From: Paenibacillus sp. BIC5C1
Lineage (GTDB): Bacteria > Bacillota > Bacilli > Paenibacillales > Paenibacillaceae
Assembly: GCF_032399705.1 (NCBI RefSeq)
Contig: NZ_CP135922.1
Span: 3,100,001 to 3,164,000, forward strand
Reading direction: 5' to 3'
DNA length: 64,000 nt
Shown here one piece after another: positions 55,382-64,000 of this stretch. The translations under genes were made by a program, and so were the position numbers. The notes under the pieces were generated by a model that was given only the letters and a program-made list of their open reading frames with translations, searched no databases and had not been told where the DNA came from. How positions within the stretch are numbered: position 1 is the stretch's first letter; each line of letters opens with the position of its first letter.

Positions 55382-55411
55382 TGATTTGAAATTGAAAACT
55401 TTCCGATTCCA

Positions 55412-55428
55412 TTCATATTCAGTTCATA
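55412..55428 (+). promoter_or_regulatory. TTCATA-N5-TTCATA direct repeat upstream of the ABC exporter
   Basis: TTCATA (55412-55417), TTCAG, TTCATA (55423-55428): an 11-bp period typical of OmpR/PhoB-type response regulator sites. The same repeat occurs before both hydrolase genes at 62327 and 63435. It is 47 bases upstream of the ATPase start. Confidence 0.6.
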
Positions 55429-55474
55429 AAAGTACGATATTCTTCCCCTATAAACGATATGGGAGGAACCACAA

Positions 55475-56506
55475 TTGACAAACATACAGCAAAGAACAAC
55501 AGGTAATGAACTTGGAGATTGGGCCATTGAAGCAGAGGGTCTTGTAAAAATCTTCGGAGATAAGCGTGCAGTTGATGGTGTAAATCTGAATGTAAAGGCA
55601 GGTACAATTTATGGCGTGCTGGGTCCGAATGGAGCAGGGAAAACAACAACAATTCGTATGCTGGGCACACTGCTTCGGCCCGATGGAGGATCAGCCAAAA
55701 TATTCGGGCATGATGTGGTGAAGGAGTCACATATCGTACGCCAGCTGATTGGACTTACAGGGCAATACGCATCGGTTGACGAGTCACTTAGTGCCAACGA
55801 AAATTTGATGATATTTTCACGGCTCCTGGGTCTTGGCCACACAGAAGCGAAGCGCAAGACAGCCGAGCTGCTCGAAGAATTCGGCTTGACGGAGGCGGCG
55901 AAACGTCCGATCAAAGGGTTCTCGGGAGGCATGCGCCGCCGTCTGGATCTGGCAGCAAGTCTTATTGCTCAGCCGCCGCTGATCTTTCTGGATGAACCGA
56001 CGACGGGACTTGACCCGAGGACACGTGCACAGATGTGGAATACGATTCGCCAGTTGGTCAAGACGGGCTCAACGGTGCTTCTGACCACACAATATCTTGA
56101 TGAAGCGGATCAACTGGCCGATCGTGTGGCGGTAATCGATCAGGGCCATGTCGTTGCCGAAGGCACGGTGGATGATTTGAAAGCATCAGTTGGCACTGCA
56201 TCACTTCAACTACGTATCCAGGAACCGACACGGATTGAACACGCCCGTCAGATTGTGGAGCAGATCCTTCGAACAGATTCCAGCGTATCAGCGGAAGCAG
56301 GAAAGATTACTGCACCGATGGCAAATGCGAATATTGCAGCAGATCTGCTGATTGCCTTCCGCTCCGCAGGCATTGACCTGGCAGAGATGAGTGTACAGAA
56401 ACCCACACTTGATGAAGTATTTCTTACCATTACGGGCCAAGGTGCGAGCGGCAATACGTCTCATACGTCTCAAGAATCAAAAGCAGTGGAGGAGTTGCAA
56501 GTATGA
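55475..56506 (+). CDS. ABC transporter ATPase, DrrA-type drug exporter
   Basis: 343 residues from TTG 55475 with GGGAGGAACC upstream. Walker A GPNGAGKTTTIRML, signature FSGGMRRRLDLAASL and Walker B PLIFLDEPTTGLD, followed by the switch TTQYLDEADQLADRV. The C-terminal extension of about 100 residues (ASLQLRIQEPTRIEHARQIV...PTLDEVFLTITGQ) is the DrrA-type domain. It powers the ABC-2 permease encoded by the next gene, with which it overlaps by 4 bases. Export of a hydrophobic antibiotic or lipid is likely. Its promoter carries the TTCATA repeat. Confidence 0.92.
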   Translation: MTNIQQRTTGNELGDWAIEAEGLVKIFGDKRAVDGVNLNVKAGTIYGVLGPNGAGKTTTIRMLGTLLRPDGGSAKIFGHDVVKESHIVRQLIGLTGQYASVDESLSANENLMIFSRLLGLGHTEAKRKTAELLEEFGLTEAAKRPIKGFSGGMRRRLDLAASLIAQPPLIFLDEPTTGLDPRTRAQMWNTIRQLVKTGSTVLLTTQYLDEADQLADRVAVIDQGHVVAEGTVDDLKASVGTASLQLRIQEPTRIEHARQIVEQILRTDSSVSAEAGKITAPMANANIAADLLIAFRSAGIDLAEMSVQKPTLDEVFLTITGQGASGNTSHTSQESKAVEELQV

Positions 56507-57318
56507 ACAGTACAATAGCGAAACAAAACCCAAGCCGTAGGCTGAGAAAATACACAAGCTTTGGGCAAACCGTCCGAAATTCCTTAACGATGGCTTATCG
56601 CGGAATTTTGAAGGTTCGACGAACACCAGAGCAATTATTCGATGTCACCCTACAGCCGATCATTTTCACATTGATGTTTACGTACATTTTTGGTGGTGCG
56701 GTCTCGGGAAACATTCAAGCTTATTTGTTGGTCATTATTCCGGGTATACTTGTGCAGACAGTAATTACAAGCTCAGTCGTTACGGGTGTGCAATTGCGTG
56801 AGGATATGGATAAAGGGGTGTTTGACCGATTCAAATCACTGCCTATAGCGCGTATTGCGCCACTGGCCGGAGCACTGCTGGCAGACACGATCCGATATAC
56901 TATTGCAACATCCCTTACCTTTGCGATCGGCTATTTATTGGGATATAGCCCTGCAGGTGGATTGGGTCATGTCGCCATGGCTGGATTGCTGGTTATTGTG
57001 TGTGCTTGGGCGATCAGTTGGATTTTTGCTTTTCTCGGTGTTATTGCGCGTACAGCGTCCAGTGTACAAGGGATTTCCATGCTCGTATTGTTTCCGCTCA
57101 CCTTTGCTTCGAATGCTTTCGTTCCGGTAGATACGATGCCAAATTGGCTTCAGTGGATTGTTAATGTCAATCCGATATCCCATTTGGTCTCAGCTGTACG
57201 GGATTTGGCGAATCAAGGTACAATGGGCACAGATCTAGTGACTAGTCTTGCTGGAGCGGCGGTTATTGTAGCCATTTTTGCACCATTAACAGTCCGGGCA
57301 TATATGCGCAGAACGTAA
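56503..57318 (+). CDS. ABC-2 type permease, DrrB-type
   Basis: 271 residues, overlapping the ATPase stop by 4 bases. Six hydrophobic helices are visible, with the ABC-2 signature near the end (MLVLFPLTFASNAFVPVDTMPNWLQWIVNVNPISHLVSAVRDLANQG). The N-terminal cytosolic helix (MAYRGILKVRRTPEQLFDVTLQPIIF) contacts the ATPase in relatives. With the ATPase it forms the exporter. It is followed by a hairpin and then by the first two-component system. Confidence 0.9.
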   Translation: MNSTIAKQNPSRRLRKYTSFGQTVRNSLTMAYRGILKVRRTPEQLFDVTLQPIIFTLMFTYIFGGAVSGNIQAYLLVIIPGILVQTVITSSVVTGVQLREDMDKGVFDRFKSLPIARIAPLAGALLADTIRYTIATSLTFAIGYLLGYSPAGGLGHVAMAGLLVIVCAWAISWIFAFLGVIARTASSVQGISMLVLFPLTFASNAFVPVDTMPNWLQWIVNVNPISHLVSAVRDLANQGTMGTDLVTSLAGAAVIVAIFAPLTVRAYMRRT

Positions 57319-57360
57319 TTGAAAATCATAACATTTTCTGGAAATGTTGAGTTATCAGGA

Positions 57361-57394
57361 AAGAGACGTTATGCCTTCATGGTATGAGGTCTCC
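57361..57394 (+). terminator. Hairpin between exporter and response regulator
   Basis: AGAGAC ... GTCTC with inner TATGCC/GGTATG (wobble pairs). The T content after it is low, so partial read-through into the regulator gene is likely. Confidence 0.5.
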
Positions 57395-57447
57395 TTCTTG
57401 AAGGGGTGTGAAGTATAAGGCAAAGTTAAAAAATGGAGGTGATCACT

Positions 57448-58122
57448 TTGACAAGCATATTGGTCGTTGATGACGACCCGCATATCCGAGAGTTGGTAGG
57501 ACATTTTTTACAGCAGGAGGGTTTGCATATAATTGAGGCTGTTGACGGTTTGGATGCACTGCGATTACTCGCTGACCATAAGGTTGACCTTGTCGTTCTC
57601 GATATTATGATGCCAGGCATGGATGGATGGGAATTGTGCCGCCAATTGCGACAGCAGACGGATCTACCACTACTGATGTTGACGGCCAAAGGGGAAACCT
57701 CGCAGATCATCAAGGGTTTTACCCTGGGAACTGATGATTATCTGGTGAAGCCTTTTGATCCGCTGGTGCTGGTTGCACGGGTGAAGGCTTTATTGAAACG
57801 ATATCGGATTATGACTTCACAAGTGATCTTTCTTGGTGAACTGGTTCTACGGGGGGATACGTTTGAGTGCAAGAAAGGTGATCAGGATATTGTGTTGCCA
57901 CGCAAGGAATTTGAACTGCTGTTCACCCTTGCGAGTTATCCTGGCAAAACCTTTACCCGTGATCAGTTAATCGAAAAGATCTGGGGTTATGATTACGAAG
58001 GGGACGAGAGGACCATTGATGTGCATATCAAGCGGCTTCGTGAACGGTTTCCGGAGGAAGAGCATGCTTTCGTCATTCGTACCATGCGAGGTTTGGGCTA
58101 TCGCCTGGAGGTAAGGCAATGA
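57448..58122 (+). CDS. OmpR/PhoB-family response regulator (system 1)
   Basis: 224 residues. GGAGGTGAT (57435-57443) sits 8 bases before TTG 57448; the ATG at 57433 is inside that ribosome site. The receiver domain has the acid pair DDD (8-10), phosphoacceptor Asp52 (VVLDIMMPGMDGW) and switch Lys in YLVKPFDP. The winged-helix output domain (about 130-224) reads LPRKEFELLFTLASYPGKTFTRDQLIEKIWGYDYEGDERTIDVHIKRLRERF. It overlaps its kinase by 4 bases. The adjacent exporter with a TTCATA-N5-TTCATA promoter is its probable target. Confidence 0.93.
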   Translation: MTSILVVDDDPHIRELVGHFLQQEGLHIIEAVDGLDALRLLADHKVDLVVLDIMMPGMDGWELCRQLRQQTDLPLLMLTAKGETSQIIKGFTLGTDDYLVKPFDPLVLVARVKALLKRYRIMTSQVIFLGELVLRGDTFECKKGDQDIVLPRKEFELLFTLASYPGKTFTRDQLIEKIWGYDYEGDERTIDVHIKRLRERFPEEEHAFVIRTMRGLGYRLEVRQ

Positions 58123-59198
58123 AGAGGAAGGAGCCTGGATTTCTTCATATTGCCAGAAACGTCATTCTGGTATCTTTGGCCCTGTTTTCCTGCTGGACAG
58201 CGGCTTTCTACCTTACGAGATATGTGTATTCATTTATCCCATGGGAACCACATGAATTGCTTGCTTTTCTGATTAATGCCATGCTGGGGTTCGTTTTCTT
58301 TGGAATAGGCATTACATTCATCGGTCCGCTGGTTAAAGGCAGGCAGTATGAATTTTTTAATGAGATGATTCAGGCTTTGAAAAGTATTTCCCGGGGGGAT
58401 TTTCGTGTGAATCTGGATCCTGAATTTGCCAATAGAAACGGGAGACAGCGAAATCCCCACCCGTTTGTGCAGTTGGTTGAGAGTATCAATGATATGGCGG
58501 CAAATTTGAAAGTGATGGAAGATTTGCGTCAGGAATTCATCTCTAATGTTTCCCATGAAATTGGATCGCCGCTTACGTCAATCAGCGGCTTCGCCAGAGC
58601 GCTGAAAAATAAAGATATGGACCAGGAGACACGGGAAAAGTATCTGACAATTATTGAGACGGAATGTGTTCGTTTGTCCAGACTCAGTGACAATTTAATG
58701 AAACTCGCCGTTCTGGATTCATCCGAGCATGCATCTCATAAAACAACTTACCGATTGGACCGGCAGCTGGTGACTCTGGTTCTGGCTTGCGAACCCCAAT
58801 GGGATGAGAAGAAAATTGATATGAACGTAGAGCTGGAAGAAGTTGGAATTTTTGCTGATGAGGACTTGATGATTCAGTTGTGGATCAATCTGATTCATAA
58901 TGCAATCAAGTTCACGCCAGAAGGCGGAAAAATTGATGTTTTCCTTACAGAAAGTGATGGCAAGGTCAGTGTACGTATTACTGACAGTGGACCCGGCATC
59001 ACCAAGCAGGATCAGCTTCGCATATTCGAACGGTTCTACAAAGCGGATCAATCCCGGACACGTGCCTTGGGCGGCAGTGGGCTGGGCCTTTCCATCGTGC
59101 ATAAAATTGTGGAGATGCATAAGGGTGCGGTCTCCGTGTTCAGTGAACCTGGAGAAGGTGCGACATTTACTGTACAGATACCTGTCCATTCAGAATAA
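58119..59198 (+). CDS. Sensor histidine kinase, short-loop membrane type (system 1)
   Basis: 359 residues. Two membrane helices (about 10-32 and 45-67) are separated by only about 12 residues (YVYSFIPWEPHE), so no external sensor domain exists. This is the layout of intramembrane-sensing kinases that watch antibiotics or transporters. A HAMP-like segment (LKSISRGDFRVNLD) leads to the HisKA box with His146 (NVSHEIGSPLTSI). The HATPase domain has an N box (LIHNAIKFTPEGG), DSGPGI and GGSGLGLSIVHKI. It overlaps the regulator and is followed by a terminator. Confidence 0.93.
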   Translation: MKRKEPGFLHIARNVILVSLALFSCWTAAFYLTRYVYSFIPWEPHELLAFLINAMLGFVFFGIGITFIGPLVKGRQYEFFNEMIQALKSISRGDFRVNLDPEFANRNGRQRNPHPFVQLVESINDMAANLKVMEDLRQEFISNVSHEIGSPLTSISGFARALKNKDMDQETREKYLTIIETECVRLSRLSDNLMKLAVLDSSEHASHKTTYRLDRQLVTLVLACEPQWDEKKIDMNVELEEVGIFADEDLMIQLWINLIHNAIKFTPEGGKIDVFLTESDGKVSVRITDSGPGITKQDQLRIFERFYKADQSRTRALGGSGLGLSIVHKIVEMHKGAVSVFSEPGEGATFTVQIPVHSE

Positions 59199-59200
59199 TA

Positions 59201-59244
59201 AAAAGGGTAATCGATGGATGTTGTCCGTCAATTATCCTTTTTTT
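59201..59244 (+). terminator. Rho-independent terminator after two-component system 1
   Basis: AAAAGGGTAAT pairs with ATTATCCTTTT (one G-U pair) across a 20-base loop; seven Ts follow. Confidence 0.85.
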
Positions 59245-59325
59245 CAATGAATTCGGCTGTTATTGTACAAAATAAGGTATATAAGCGATAATCTGCAGGG
59301 GAGCTAATACATAAGGCTGCAAGGA

Positions 59326-60078
59326 GTGAGCAATCTGCTGATATCTTCCACTCACCTACAACGTCTGATTGATGTGATGAATTCATTACCGATTCAACCA
59401 AAGTACTCCAAAGCACAGCTGCTGATTAAGGATTTGAAATTAAGCTCAGCGGGAGAGGTGGAGATGTTCTACTCTCCACATAATGAATATATCAATCCTT
59501 CCGCAAAAGTCATGCTTGTGGGCATCACACCAGGTTGGCAGCAAATGGAGATTGCATATAGAACGGCTATCCAGGTTTTGAAAGCACACAAATCATACGA
59601 GCAAGCTTGTAAAGAAGCCAAAATATCGGCAAGAATGGCCGGCTCCATGCGCAGCAATTTGATTCAAATGCTCCAGGAAATAGGCTTGCATGAATATGTG
59701 AAAGTGCCCCATGTGCAAAGGCTATTTGAAGCAGATTGTACATTGTTACATACAACTTCTCTGATTCGATATCCAGTCTTGGTAAACAAACAAAATTATA
59801 ATGGACACCAGCCTTCCATTCTTAAAAATACATTTTTATATCAAGCCGTACTTGAGTCTTTTCTGCCTGAGTTGGAACAGTTGAAGTATCCTCTTATCAT
59901 TCCCTTAGGAAAGTCAGTGGAGGCTGTACTACATCAATTGCTTGATGAACATCGGATAAAAGAAGGGAAAATTTTATGGGGATTTCCACATCCATCGGGT
60001 GCCAATGGTTCTCGTGTGAAACAGTTTCTTCATACCAAGACTGGCATGCAGAACATTCTAAGGGAGTGGCGTCATTAA
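59326..60078 (+). CDS. Uracil-DNA-glycosylase-superfamily-like protein
   Basis: 250 residues. The start is uncertain: GTG 59326 is the first start, but AAGGAG overlaps it; no ATG lies nearer than about 59374. VMLVGITPGWQQMEIAYR (about 66-83) matches the first UDG motif GxxPG, and GKILWGFPHPSGANGSRVKQF (about 217-237) the second motif HPSGAN. The usual catalytic Asp/His of canonical Ung enzymes is not obvious, so DNA glycosylase activity is not assured. It is encoded between two sensor systems but has its own promoter region. Confidence 0.65.
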   Translation: MSNLLISSTHLQRLIDVMNSLPIQPKYSKAQLLIKDLKLSSAGEVEMFYSPHNEYINPSAKVMLVGITPGWQQMEIAYRTAIQVLKAHKSYEQACKEAKISARMAGSMRSNLIQMLQEIGLHEYVKVPHVQRLFEADCTLLHTTSLIRYPVLVNKQNYNGHQPSILKNTFLYQAVLESFLPELEQLKYPLIIPLGKSVEAVLHQLLDEHRIKEGKILWGFPHPSGANGSRVKQFLHTKTGMQNILREWRH

Positions 60079-60167
60079 ATTTCTTACTTGCTTCTTGCTT
60101 TTTACAAATTCAATAATAGTATAATGATTACGACTACATGACATGGAAACAGGAAAAGAGGAAACAC

Positions 60168-60842
60168 ATGCCTACAATACTGGTTGCTGACGATGATCCG
60201 AACATTCGTGAACTCGTCTGTTTATTTTTGAGAAATGATGGATTTGAAACGGCTGAAGCTGCGGATGGCAAGGAGGCACTGACCGTTTACGGCTCAACAC
60301 ATGTCGATCTTGTTGTGCTTGATATCATGATGCCTATCATGGATGGTTGGACATTATGCAAGGAGCTGCGAAGAGCCAATCCAGATCTTCCGTTGCTCAT
60401 GCTGACGGCGAGAGGGGAGACCTGGGAGAAGGTGAAGGGATTCGAACTGGGAACGGATGATTATCTGACAAAACCGTTTGATCCATTGGAGCTCACGGCA
60501 CGTGTTCGAGCATTACTGAAGCGATACAAAATCGGCTCCACGCAGACGATCCATTTCGGCAACGTCATTCTGGATCGACAAACCTACAAGGTGACGAGCG
60601 GAACAGAGTCGCTTACGTTGCCGCTGAAGGAATTCGAATTGCTCTATAGACTCGCTGGAACGCCCGGACAAGTCTATACACGTGAGCAATTGATTGATCA
60701 AATCTGGGGAATTGATTACGCCGGTGATGATCGAACAGTAGACGTACATATTAAACGCCTGCGTGAACGGTTCGCAACAACACCCGATTTTCGGATTGAA
60801 ACGGTGCGAGGTCTGGGGTACCGGCTTGAGGTTTACGAATGA
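60168..60842 (+). CDS. OmpR/PhoB-family response regulator (system 2)
   Basis: 224 residues from ATG 60168 with AGAGGA upstream; an in-frame start at 60138 lacks a site. Receiver: DDD at 8-10, Asp52 (VVLDIMMPIMDGW), Lys in YLTKPFDPLE. The winged-helix domain LPLKEFELLYRLAGTPGQVYTREQLIDQIWGIDYAGDDRTVDVHIKRLRERF is very close to that of system 1, including the recognition helix (RTVDVHIKRLRERF against RTIDVHIKRLRERF), so both may bind the same DNA site. It overlaps its kinase gene by 4 bases. Confidence 0.93.
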   Translation: MPTILVADDDPNIRELVCLFLRNDGFETAEAADGKEALTVYGSTHVDLVVLDIMMPIMDGWTLCKELRRANPDLPLLMLTARGETWEKVKGFELGTDDYLTKPFDPLELTARVRALLKRYKIGSTQTIHFGNVILDRQTYKVTSGTESLTLPLKEFELLYRLAGTPGQVYTREQLIDQIWGIDYAGDDRTVDVHIKRLRERFATTPDFRIETVRGLGYRLEVYE

Positions 60843-62206
60843 TTAGATCGTTATATATCCGTGTGGTCCTGACATTTCTGGTCTCCGTCATCGCCGGCAC
60901 GGTCATTTCTTTTTTTGTGTCCACGATGATATTCGAAGATCAATTGAATGAAAATGCTCAAATTAACATACGTAACTTCGGCCAGGATATCGTGCAGATT
61001 TACAAGACCCTTCCATTAAGTGAAGCAGAATCGTACGTTAGTGGAATGAAGCTACTGAATTCATATCATATTCGAATTTACGATGCAACGGGTCAGTTCC
61101 AGTCGTATGGAAAGCTTAACGGACATAAATCGGCCACGGTGACGAAAGAGCAACTAAAGAAAGTGCTAGATGGAGGCGTAGTTCAGGACAATCCGAATGG
61201 TATTGCAACAGTTCTTTTAGGTTTGCCGGTGAAAACGGAAATGGGAGCGAAAGCGATGTTTTTTGAGACACTCACTCCCCCTTCTTCCTTGTTTGTCGTC
61301 CAATGGGCTTCGATCTTTGCAACTTGTTCATTGATTGCAGGAAGTATTATCATTCTGATTGCTTCCATATTTCTGGTTAGACCGATCAAAAAACTGACAA
61401 AAGCAACGAAGCGGATCGCTGCTGGAGATTTCAACGTCAAGCTGAATATTAAGCAAACCGGAGAACTGGGCACACTGGCGCGCAGTTTCGAAGAAATGAT
61501 TCATGATTTGCAGCAGTTGGAGCAGATGCGCAGGGAATTTGTAACGAATGTGTCACACGAGGTTCAATCTCCGCTGACTTCGATATCCGGTTATGCTCAA
61601 GCACTGAAACAAGTAAATCTCTCAGAGCAAGAACGAAGCCGATATCTTGAGATTATCATCGCTGAGGCGAAGCGGATGTCCAAAATGAGTGATAATCTGC
61701 TCAAGCTGAGTATGCTTGAATCGCAGTCACAGCAACCACGACTTAGCACACTTAGCCTGGATGAACAGATCAGGCGGGTCATTGTAACTCTCCAGCCGCA
61801 ATGGTCTGCTCGCAACATTCACTTTGAGCTCGATCTCCAAGCTGTTAAAGTATTGGCTGATCACGACCAACTGAACCAGGTATGGACGAATATTCTCAGC
61901 AACGGTATCAAATTTTCAAAGGATGGCGGCGTAATTCACGTCAGCACCAAGCAGGATATCAAGAACGTGACTATTCGAATCTCCGACACAGGTATCGGTA
62001 TCCCTCTTGAAGACCAGAAGCGCATATTCGAACGATTTTTCAAGTCGGATCGTTCTCATAGTCGCAAGTATGACGGCAGTGGTATGGGACTTGCTATCGT
62101 TAAACAGATTGTATCGCTTCATCAAGGGGACATTCGAGTAGAAAGTGAACCTGGTCAGGGAACGACTTTTATTGTCACGTTGCCAATCACTCCACCAACG
62201 GAATAG
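60839..62206 (+). CDS. Sensor histidine kinase with extracytoplasmic domain (system 2)
   Basis: 455 residues. Membrane helices at about 8-30 and 158-182 flank an external domain of about 125 residues (QLNENAQINIRNFGQDIVQ to LPVKTEMGAKAMF). A HAMP domain (VRPIKKLTKATKRIAAGDFNVKLN) is followed by HisKA with His240 (NVSHEVQSPLTSISGYAQAL) and HATPase with N box (ILSNGIKFSKDGG), DTGIGI and GSGMGLAIVKQI. The external domain has no recognised family. It is cotranscribed with its regulator and ends before a strong terminator. Confidence 0.93.
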   Translation: MIRSLYIRVVLTFLVSVIAGTVISFFVSTMIFEDQLNENAQINIRNFGQDIVQIYKTLPLSEAESYVSGMKLLNSYHIRIYDATGQFQSYGKLNGHKSATVTKEQLKKVLDGGVVQDNPNGIATVLLGLPVKTEMGAKAMFFETLTPPSSLFVVQWASIFATCSLIAGSIIILIASIFLVRPIKKLTKATKRIAAGDFNVKLNIKQTGELGTLARSFEEMIHDLQQLEQMRREFVTNVSHEVQSPLTSISGYAQALKQVNLSEQERSRYLEIIIAEAKRMSKMSDNLLKLSMLESQSQQPRLSTLSLDEQIRRVIVTLQPQWSARNIHFELDLQAVKVLADHDQLNQVWTNILSNGIKFSKDGGVIHVSTKQDIKNVTIRISDTGIGIPLEDQKRIFERFFKSDRSHSRKYDGSGMGLAIVKQIVSLHQGDIRVESEPGQGTTFIVTLPITPPTE

Positions 62207-62269
62207 TTAATTTTACAGGATAAGGTGGATATGTAGAATATCCATCCGATTGTCTAAACCATATTTTCT

Positions 62270-62321
62270 GGCCACGTTTCACATGCAAGCTTCCTCGCAT
62301 GTGAAACGTGGCCTTTTTTTT
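62270..62321 (+). terminator. Strong rho-independent terminator after two-component system 2
   Basis: A perfect 17-bp stem (GGCCACGTTTCACATGC and complement) closes a 10-base loop and ends in eight Ts. Confidence 0.95.
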
Positions 62322-62326
62322 GTTAG

Positions 62327-62343
62327 TTCATATTCCGTTCATA
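62327..62343 (+). promoter_or_regulatory. TTCATA-N5-TTCATA direct repeat upstream of hydrolase 1
   Basis: TTCATA (62327-62332), TTCCG, TTCATA (62338-62343), directly after the terminator T run. Sequence past the repeat (TTGTCGTCATG) resembles that after the copy at 63435. Confidence 0.65.
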
Positions 62344-62434
62344 TTGTCGTCATGATGAGGACATCTTTGATAGTTAATCTTGAATTAAAGGCTTGTTACA
62401 GCCATTAAACAGATGAGGACAGGAGCAGATGAGT

Positions 62435-63415
62435 GTGACACAAGAAACGGAGAAGAAACAGTCGGGTGGATCCAAAACAAAGAAAGTGTTAAACATTTTG
62501 CTTAAGGTATTAGGTGCAATCGTTATAGTCATTCTACTTTTCGTGGCCACCGTGTATAGCGTTAACAAAATTAGCAGTCATTCGGAGCAAAAAAGAATGG
62601 AAACGTATGGACAGCGCGTATCTGTAGATGGAAAACAGATGAATGTCAGCATTCAAGGAAAAGGAGAAGAAACGATCGTCCTTTTACCAGGGTTTGGAAC
62701 AGCGTCACCTGCACTTGATTTTAAGCCACTTATTTCAGAACTATCCCCATATTATAAAGTCGTCGTGGTTGAACCTTTTGGTTATGGATTGAGTGATCAG
62801 ACCGAAAGGGAGCGCAGTACAGCAAATATCGTAAGTGAAATCCACGAAGCGTTGCAAAGTCTTCATATTGATCGTTATATCCTTATGGGTCATTCCATTT
62901 CCGGGATCTATAGCCTGGATTATGTGAACAAATATCCAAACGAAGTAAGTGCATTTGTCGGACTGGATAGCAGTGTTCCAACAATCAGTGAACAAAAGAT
63001 TGATTCTTCAGATACGCAACCGATTAAATGGTTCCGTAACTTAGGATTCGCACGATTACAATTGAAACTGAGTGCTGATCCTTATGATGGACTGCCTTAT
63101 GATGAGCAGACTAAAGAACAATTGAACATTATGATCCGAAAAAATATGTATAATACCACTCAATTAAATGAGGCAGAGAGTATGTATTCCAACTTTAAAG
63201 CAGCTGAACAGCTAACGTTCCCTGTTAATCTGCCGGTTCTATTCTTTGTTCAAAAGAATCATCCGGCAGCGGAGAATTGGATTCCCGAGCATGAGAAGCT
63301 TATAGAGAACACTGTGCATAGTGAAGTGGTGCTGCTGGAAGCGAATCATTATTTGTATCGTTCCCACGCCAAAGAAATTGCGGAAAAATTCAGGGGGTTT
63401 ATGACGTCCCAGTAA
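62435..63415 (+). CDS. Membrane-anchored alpha/beta hydrolase 1
   Basis: 326 residues counted from GTG 62435, which has AGGAG 9 bases upstream and is conserved in the next paralogue; ATG 62429 is only 3 bases from that site. A basic N-terminus precedes one membrane helix (VLGAIVIVILLFVATVYSV), so the catalytic domain should face outside. Nucleophile Ser154 lies in GHSISG, and LLPGFGTASPALDFK holds the oxyanion loop. Asp178 (GLDSSVP) and His305 (EANHYLY) complete a plausible triad. The substrate is unknown; esterase, lipase or antibiotic-inactivating roles are possible. The TTCATA repeat upstream suggests control by an adjacent response regulator. Confidence 0.82.
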   Translation: MTQETEKKQSGGSKTKKVLNILLKVLGAIVIVILLFVATVYSVNKISSHSEQKRMETYGQRVSVDGKQMNVSIQGKGEETIVLLPGFGTASPALDFKPLISELSPYYKVVVVEPFGYGLSDQTERERSTANIVSEIHEALQSLHIDRYILMGHSISGIYSLDYVNKYPNEVSAFVGLDSSVPTISEQKIDSSDTQPIKWFRNLGFARLQLKLSADPYDGLPYDEQTKEQLNIMIRKNMYNTTQLNEAESMYSNFKAAEQLTFPVNLPVLFFVQKNHPAAENWIPEHEKLIENTVHSEVVLLEANHYLYRSHAKEIAEKFRGFMTSQ

Positions 63416-63434
63416 GTAATAATTTATTTGCTTG

Positions 63435-63451
63435 TTCATATTCAGTTCATA
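63435..63451 (+). promoter_or_regulatory. TTCATA-N5-TTCATA direct repeat upstream of hydrolase 2
   Basis: TTCATA (63435-63440), TTCAG, TTCATA (63446-63451), followed by TTGACGTCACG. No terminator separates it from hydrolase 1, so the second gene may be both independently regulated and read through. Confidence 0.65.
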
Positions 63452-63545
63452 TTGACGTCACGGGGAGTACATTTTCATCGGTTAAGATTTCATTAGCAGC
63501 AAAGAAGAAAGCCGAACTAACAGTTCAAGACAGGAGAAGATGAGA

Positions 63546-64000
63546 GTGACACAACCAGAGGAAAAGAAAGCGAAGAATGGATCGAAGGCCAAGAAAGTAC
63601 GGAATATTATACTTAAAATACTAGGAGCAATCGTAATCGCCATTATTTTGTTTCTAGGTATTGTTTATATCACGAATGTGATCAGTAGCAATTCCGAAGC
63701 GAAAAAGATTGAGCCTTATGGTCAGCACGTATCTGTAGACGGGAAAAATATGAATGTGCTCATTCAAGGTGAAGGCAAGGAAACGATTGTGCTTCTGCCC
63801 GGTTTTGGAACAGCGACACCAGCGCTTGATTTCAAGTTGCTTATTGATGAATTATCTCCATATTACAAAGTTGTTGCAGTTGAGCCTTTCGGTTACGGAT
63901 TAAGTGATGGAACAGAAAAAGAAAGAACCACAGAAAATATCGTAAGTGAAGTTCATGAAGCTCTGCAGCAACTTGATATTCATCAGTATATGCTCATGGG
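63546..64000 (+). CDS. Membrane-anchored alpha/beta hydrolase 2, truncated by window end
   Basis: About 151 codons are visible, starting at GTG 63546 (ATG 63540 is 3 bases after AGGAG). It is a tandem paralogue of hydrolase 1: the same basic N-terminus, membrane helix (ILGAIVIAIILFLGIVYI), then PYGQHVSVDGKNMNVLIQGEGKETIVLLPGFGTATPALDFK and VVAVEPFGYGLSDGTEKERTT. The window ends at MLMG, just before the expected nucleophile Ser. Its upstream TTCATA repeat parallels that of hydrolase 1. Confidence 0.8.
   Translation, partial: MTQPEEKKAKNGSKAKKVRNIILKILGAIVIAIILFLGIVYITNVISSNSEAKKIEPYGQHVSVDGKNMNVLIQGEGKETIVLLPGFGTATPALDFKLLIDELSPYYKVVAVEPFGYGLSDGTEKERTTENIVSEVHEALQQLDIHQYMLM

Follow-up and report, generated by a model that had tools for sequence, protein, structure and literature searches.

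Three direct repeats in a 64,000-nucleotide stretch of the Paenibacillus sp. BIC5C1 genome (contig NZ_CP135922.1, positions 3,100,001–3,164,000; hereafter the window) are best explained as control sites of HssR/HitR-type response regulators, laid out as two 11-bp units before an exporter operon and as arrays of four such units before each of two hydrolase genes; we give this explanation a probability of about 0.82. The repeats, TTCATA-N5-TTCATA, lie on the + strand at 55412–55428, 62327–62343, and 63435–63451, and all three were found exactly where an earlier note on this DNA had reported them. Between the sites are encoded two two-component systems (TCSs), each consisting of a response regulator (RR) and a histidine kinase (HK), here called RR1/HK1 and RR2/HK2. 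As the note had claimed, both regulators are of the OmpR/PhoB type; they are 60% identical and have a near-identical helix, RT[IV]DVHIKRLRERF, which, by analogy with PhoB, is taken to be the recognition helix. Its descriptions of the genes (exporter, two regulators, and hydrolases) match the profile and Pfam results, and its reading of the repeats as OmpR/PhoB-type sites under two-component control, placed at promoters, is supported. The note had further proposed one small regulon of an exporter and surface hydrolases with an envelope- or drug-stress flavor. That set of genes stands; the idea of three equal sites does not, since the sites are of a two-unit and a four-unit type.

In 100 dinucleotide shuffles of the window, TTCATA-N5-TTCATA matched 0.03 times on average and at most once. 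The whole genome (7,078,281 bases) contains five exact sites, and a TTCNG spacer is found only in the window's three, the spacers of the other two being unrelated. The sequence TTCATATTCNGTTCATA has three exact matches in the genome, all in the window, and no matches with one mismatch. The form at 62327 and 63435, GTTCATATT-NN-GTTCATATT, corresponds to the S. aureus HssR box. A literature search using the letters of the half-site gave nothing relevant among the matches listed. The 17-mer alone, with ≤3 mismatches, matched the genome 171 times (reversed pattern, 59), which is too noisy for defining a regulon; adding the position of the −10 element to the pattern improved the specificity of the scan.

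Among 77 hydrolase loci from named genomes of several genera (best 80 of 143 relatives), scanned over 300 bp upstream and approximately 60 bp of the gene, the box was present in 70 with ≤2 mismatches and in 72 with ≤3. Reversed regions yielded 0 of 77 even at ≤4 mismatches, and random windows yielded 68 of 1540, a number that includes real neighboring boxes. A T run 5′ of the box is common in these loci; in the window, a terminator-like inverted repeat with a T run (62270–62321, read from the letters) lies immediately 5′ of the box of hydrolase 1.

When the 72 box-bearing hydrolase promoters are compared, conservation spans approximately 54 bp rather than 17, and T49, A50, and T54 are invariant. 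Against copies shifted by 11, 22, and 33 bp, the first unit has similarities of 0.73, 0.43, and 0.59, respectively; no other shift exceeds 0.41. A matrix of the unit gave its four best starts at 11, 0, 33, and 22, with scores of 16.4, 16.0, 1.1, and −9.9, respectively, the next score being −12.2, so that unit 4 stands out and unit 3 is weak. In the window, the array before hydrolase 1 occupies 62326–62369 (units 62326–62336, 62337–62347, 62348–62358, and 62359–62369, the last two weaker), and the same pattern analysis places the array before hydrolase 2 at 63434–63477. The presumed −10 elements, TAATCT (62375–62380) and TAAGAT (63483–63488), start at base 49 of their boxes. The two-unit repeat before the exporter operon (55411–55432, an exact match) is followed by a presumed −10 TATTCT (55438–55443), which starts at base 27.

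A different assignment of the longer promoters would let the distal pair alone bind a response regulator and make the conserved bases 23–41 the site of a different protein. The proximal units, CGTCAY and GKACAT, indeed differ from the distal pair, and unit 3 is barely above background in the unit matrix. On the evidence of the promoter sequences, we still consider this assignment unlikely, because the proximal units are highly conserved and retain a CA core in exact 11-bp phase, shifted copies resemble the first unit most at 11, 22, and 33, and the −10 has moved by precisely two units.

The spacing was counted in 167 distinct boxes of consensus TTCATAYTCNGTTCATA, a set of related sequences from which only identical segments had been removed. 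A TAnnnT motif starts at base 27 in 32 of these boxes, at base 49 in 126, and at either in 156; at other positions, its mean frequency is 1.6% and its highest 18%. Promoters of genes for HitP, the exporter ATPase, have the motif at base 27 in 18/18 cases, as in the window, and at base 49 in 0/18. Hydrolase-type promoters have it at base 49 in 120 of 121 (including two boxes without an open reading frame call) and never at base 27; a single promoter of this type misses the spacing. The shift from base 27 to base 49 equals exactly two 11-bp units (22 bp), and two additional, weaker units lie between. For the exporter promoter, an alternative −10 at base 38 (TATAAA) is less favored, as TAnnnT is found there in 0/18 HitP promoters versus 18/18 at base 27. 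The mean match to TATAAT is about equal at bases 27 and 38 (4.06 and 4.17), and base 27 is thus preferred but not proved. Base-27 spacing also occurs in an unannotated Listeria record, recognized as hssRS-hrtBA by gene order and Pfam and assumed to match the promoter tested in PMC6305404, in which the repeat has 3 mismatches and TAAACT starts at base 27, and, as a single case, in an exporter-TCS locus of a Priestia plasmid.

The two promoter types are also distributed differently with respect to the kinases. In the genus sample of 75 genomes, a four-unit promoter is present in 51/51 genomes with an HK2-type kinase and in 0/24 without one. The cut for this kinase type (best E ≤3e-78 in 51 genomes, next best 2.5e-29) was placed in the gap after the gap had been seen. 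HK1 (E ≤7.5e-146) was found in 22 of the 75 genomes, a count that leaves out two weaker matches (~1e-103 to 1e-106); 27 candidates were scored per genome. A box lies upstream of HK1 on the same strand in 22/22 genomes, at 2.62 to 2.72 kb in 21 and at 0.86 kb in one. In 55 of the 77 named hydrolase loci, RR2 or RR3, the regulator of a third TCS beyond the window end, is encoded at ≥80% identity. Because of this co-occurrence of HK1 and HK2 with the promoter types, we attribute the exporter site to RR1/HK1 and the hydrolase sites to RR2/HK2, and the three sites probably represent two sub-regulons, one comprising RR1/HK1 and the exporter and the other RR2/HK2 and the hydrolases. In a single shared regulon, either regulator, mainly RR1, would act on all three sites, as the near-identical recognition helices, the identical core half-sites, and the cross-regulation of promoters by HssRS and HitRS (PMC3968170) might lead one to expect. 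This seems rather improbable, given that HK1 is absent from 39 of the 51 four-unit genomes and that 10 of the 22 genomes with HK1 have no four-unit promoter, whereas HK2 agrees with the promoter in 75/75.

The exact box is present in 50/75 genomes of the genus (control matches, 0) and in 194/394 genomes of the family (control matches, 1). The first 30 matching genomes of each group were analyzed, giving 60 loci and 64 boxes. A script found a same-strand gene start within −90 to +400 bp of 62 boxes, and the remaining two stand before HitP-like and RR1-like genes whose called starts are over-long. The genome scan that the earlier note had proposed as a check therefore did not reveal random positions, nearly every box in these 60 loci standing before a gene on its own strand. 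Genes 3′ of the boxes include those for hydrolases, HitP, RR1-like regulators, MsbA-type exporters, an AcrB-type protein, and a Tet(X)-related monooxygenase. The last of these (locus L175, 1537–2736) directly follows its box and scores far under the family cut-off (193 of 750 bits); the box at locus L080 appears to be spurious. The four-unit pattern occurs in 168/388 family genomes with 0 control matches, and the two-unit pattern has 186 matches in the genus versus 15 for the reversed pattern, covering 67/75 genomes. Hydrolases 1 and 2 are tandem paralogs, and one could imagine that their boxes are nonfunctional left-overs of gene duplication. This reading is scarcely tenable and already contradicted, as the same geometry precedes nonhomologous genes (exporters and SerH_b, a beta-lactamase-fold hydrolase) and is retained in genera whose hydrolases are approximately 60 to 70% identical.

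With RR2 as the query, a search of the genome's proteins retrieved RR2 itself, then regulators with 82%, 63%, 60%, 53%, and 50% identity, the next being at 44%. All six HssR-like TCSs have the repeat with ≤3 mismatches before a neighboring exporter or hydrolase gene. In genome numbering, the repeats precede the hit exporter (3155412), hydrolases 1 and 2 (3162327 and 3163435), SerH_b and another beta-lactamase-fold hydrolase, SerH_c, near RR3 (3170738 and 3176238 reverse), SerH_d (903641), a MacB-like exporter (2854488), and hrtBA-type genes beside an HssRS-like pair (1754212). All eight sites keep the base-27 or the base-49 spacing; the chance of such a fit is ~1e-12 to 2e-10, a figure to be read with the fact that the rule was partly derived from these same sites. 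The HssRS-like pair and the hrtB/hrtA-type genes that follow it (FtsX permease and ATP-binding cassette [ABC] ATPase), with their own box, occupy 1752148–1756069, and this locus is the likely heme system of BIC5C1. The regulator beside these hrtBA-type genes and the Listeria regulator beside such genes share 50% and 51% identity, respectively, with RR2. The window TCSs share their box type and regulator family with the heme sensor HssRS, but that they are HssRS itself is very improbable, as the hrtBA-type genes adjoin another TCS with a box of its own and the exporter genes in the window are of a different type.

Several observations weigh against the explanation preferred here. The box is absent from 5 of the 77 hydrolase loci (best match, 6 mismatches). 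The mean matrix score of unit 3 is negative (−9.9, versus −12.2 for the next-best chance position), and when the classes are taken separately, this unit is not one of the four best for hydrolase 2, hydrolase 3, or SerH_b. Neither spacing is found in 6/23 boxes before unclassified genes and in 4/5 boxes before RR1-like genes. In the BIC5C1 genome, boxes with closer letters (2 mismatches) exist at 904769, 2859401, and 1764239, all reverse, near three of the TCSs but in the opposite orientation or at a greater distance; TAnnnT lies at base 49 in one of them, and two fit neither spacing. The RR2/RR3 cluster is not exclusively of the four-unit type, as the site of SerH_c, near RR3, has two units. 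The genomes of the genus are related, so that the Fisher test of the co-occurrence overstates its strength; shared descent weakens this statistic, though not the pattern. Finally, RR1 and RR2 may share sites because of their near-identical recognition helices and the cross-regulation reported for HssRS and HitRS.

The box together with the fixed −10 makes a pattern specific enough to list candidates across a whole genome. In the BIC5C1 genome, the four-unit pattern matched the three known sites alone, even at 3 mismatches (control, 0). The two-unit pattern gave six exact matches, five known ones and a new site at 3853280 reverse; at 1 mismatch, it gave 21 matches versus 5 for the control, and only the exact six were hence used. 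In this way, the pattern pointed to a further target, a Na+/H+-exchanger gene (PF00999). The new two-unit box (3853249–3853280 reverse, TAnnnT at base 27) lies approximately 72 bp before this gene and far from the six TCSs. In a check that covered 13 of 30 loci, the site was retained in 7/7 loci (the own locus and six close orthologs, 88–100% identical), three of which carry a further box on the opposite strand, and it was not found in 6/6 loci of a 43% identical relative. Variant forms were seen in Priestia: a second plasmid combines the helix HTLNVHINR with a TTGAT box (a single case). At locus L216 (4899–4966), from a Priestia megaterium plasmid, an RND exporter gene and a TCS whose regulator has a variant helix diverge from two variant half-site boxes with 3 and 5 mismatches, the second being listed only for its TAnnnT at base 27.

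The exporter, TCS, and hydrolase genes of the window are on the + strand. Behind the first repeat, over 55412–59198, follow the genes for a DrrA-type ABC exporter ATPase (HitP-like; 55475–56506; TIGR01188, 361.9 bits with a cut-off of 312.45), an ABC-2 type permease (HitQ-like; 56503–57318; PF01061), RR1 (HitR-like; 57433–58122; assigned from Pfam domains, the genome protein search, and the helix comparison), and HK1 (HitS-like; 58119–59198). By its layout, the 55475–59198 operon appears hitPQRS-like. Domains and hydropathy describe HK1 as a kinase with two membrane helices (7–25 and 47–65) and almost no external part, the absence of an external domain being judged from hydropathy only. RR2 (60138–60842) is assigned to the hydrolase promoters by its identity to RR1 and its co-location with hydrolase loci; HK2 (60839–62206), which co-occurs with the four-unit promoter, has an external sensor domain of approximately 140 residues, based on domains and hydropathy. 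No NCBIfam family was above its cut-off for the regulators or kinases among the 25 best for each, and the curated PhoB cut-off (296.2 bits) is not reached by RR1 (205.8) or RR2 (212.7). A homologue search with HK1 returned general kinase names only.

Hydrolase 1 (62429–63415; PF00561) and hydrolase 2 (63540–64000, recognized by similarity to hydrolase 1 and continuing to 64529 in the genome) are alpha/beta hydrolases, each with one N-terminal membrane helix, and are 73% identical over the 153 residues of hydrolase 2 inside the window. In hydrolase 1, S156 and H307 are invariant across 31 aligned sequences. Among solved structures, the matches were to regulators and hydrolases in general, with no clue to the substrate. 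Between the two TCSs, a gene at 59326–60078 shows weak similarity, below the cut-off, to the uracil-DNA-glycosylase superfamily; it is present in 6/6 named loci in which HitP and RR2 are both encoded. Beyond the window end, the cluster extends to ~76.2 kb (window numbering) and contains the remainder of hydrolase 2, a PAF-acetylhydrolase-like protein, SerH_a, RR3/HK3, SerH_b, a third alpha/beta hydrolase, and SerH_c. A PF00144 domain is present in all four SerH proteins (SerH_a to SerH_d), as is an export-type hydrophobic helix at the N terminus, and SerH_d has four extra C-terminal helices.

From the sites, positions, conservation, and co-occurrence seen in the sequence, we infer binding, activation, cognate pairing, signal, and substrates as follows. 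Phosphorylated HssR/HitR-type response regulators would bind the 11-bp half-sites head-to-tail and recruit RNA polymerase to promoters with a −10 at a fixed distance. The hitPQRS-like operon would drive itself from its two-unit site, most likely through RR1/HK1, and RR2/HK2 would drive the hydrolase genes from four-unit arrays, each composed of a near-perfect distal pair and a proximal pair that diverges in sequence yet is conserved, the −10 lying exactly 22 bp further downstream. The exporter, the membrane-anchored alpha/beta hydrolases, and the beta-lactamase-fold hydrolases would then remove or destroy envelope-active compounds. That the products handle such compounds is probable from the kinds of genes present, and the compounds are perhaps antibiotics of neighbors; for the beta-lactamase-fold hydrolases, literature on D-stereospecific peptidases only suggests a possible role (PMC9541196).

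How close TCS relatives are kept from turning on each other's targets is an open question, for which HssRS and HitRS are a good case, as their insulation partly fails (PMC3968170). The BIC5C1 genome holds six relatives with a nearly constant recognition helix, one half-site, and two sharply separate promoter layouts. Throughout the sampled genomes of the genus, one layout is perfectly matched to a single kinase type, which makes specificity based on geometry directly testable. We tentatively raise the possibility, which at present we would not bet on, that the paralogous TCSs are kept apart by promoter geometry and not by sequence, RR2 requiring four units and a −10 at base 49, and RR1 and HssR working from two units and a −10 at base 27. 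If this were true, a 22-bp change would transfer a gene between the systems. The regulator family and the repeat are already known, as is a varying number of units for Pho boxes; the promoter geometry is the new element here. None of the papers covered by our search names Paenibacillus together with HssR or HitRS; no description of a four-unit HssR-type array was among the matches listed in this thin search, and no mention of the repeat was met in PMC12153329.

Among known systems, the repeats and their TCSs appear to belong with the HssR/HitR group. A related repeat stands before both hitPQ and hitRS of B. anthracis. There, HitRS responds to compounds presumed to cause envelope stress and takes part in cross-regulation with HssRS, and the response of each promoter is set by four nucleotide differences (PMC3968170). 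The window resembles HitRS-HitPQ in having a direct repeat, related to the hrt repeat, before a set of ABC exporter and TCS genes, and HK1 resembles HitS, described as an intramembrane-sensing kinase with a short external loop (PMC7790381). It differs in having an adjoining second TCS, linked to hydrolases with four-unit promoters. With HssRS-HrtAB, the window shares the regulator family, the 11-bp direct repeat, and the base-27 spacing seen in the Listeria stretch and in this genome; in Listeria, mutation of the hrtAB direct repeat showed that it is needed for HssR-dependent induction (PMC6305404). Unlike in that system, the window TCSs are not next to hrt-type genes, and the genome has its own hss-hrt-like locus elsewhere. 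PhoB/PhoP provides a parallel for arrays, since Pho boxes consist of 11-nt direct units that are bound head-to-tail in simple and complex operators of varying unit number (PMC4415409). The half-site and the regulator are different, however, with RR1 and RR2 scoring under the PhoB cut-off, and here, the split between two and four units tracks the kinase type.

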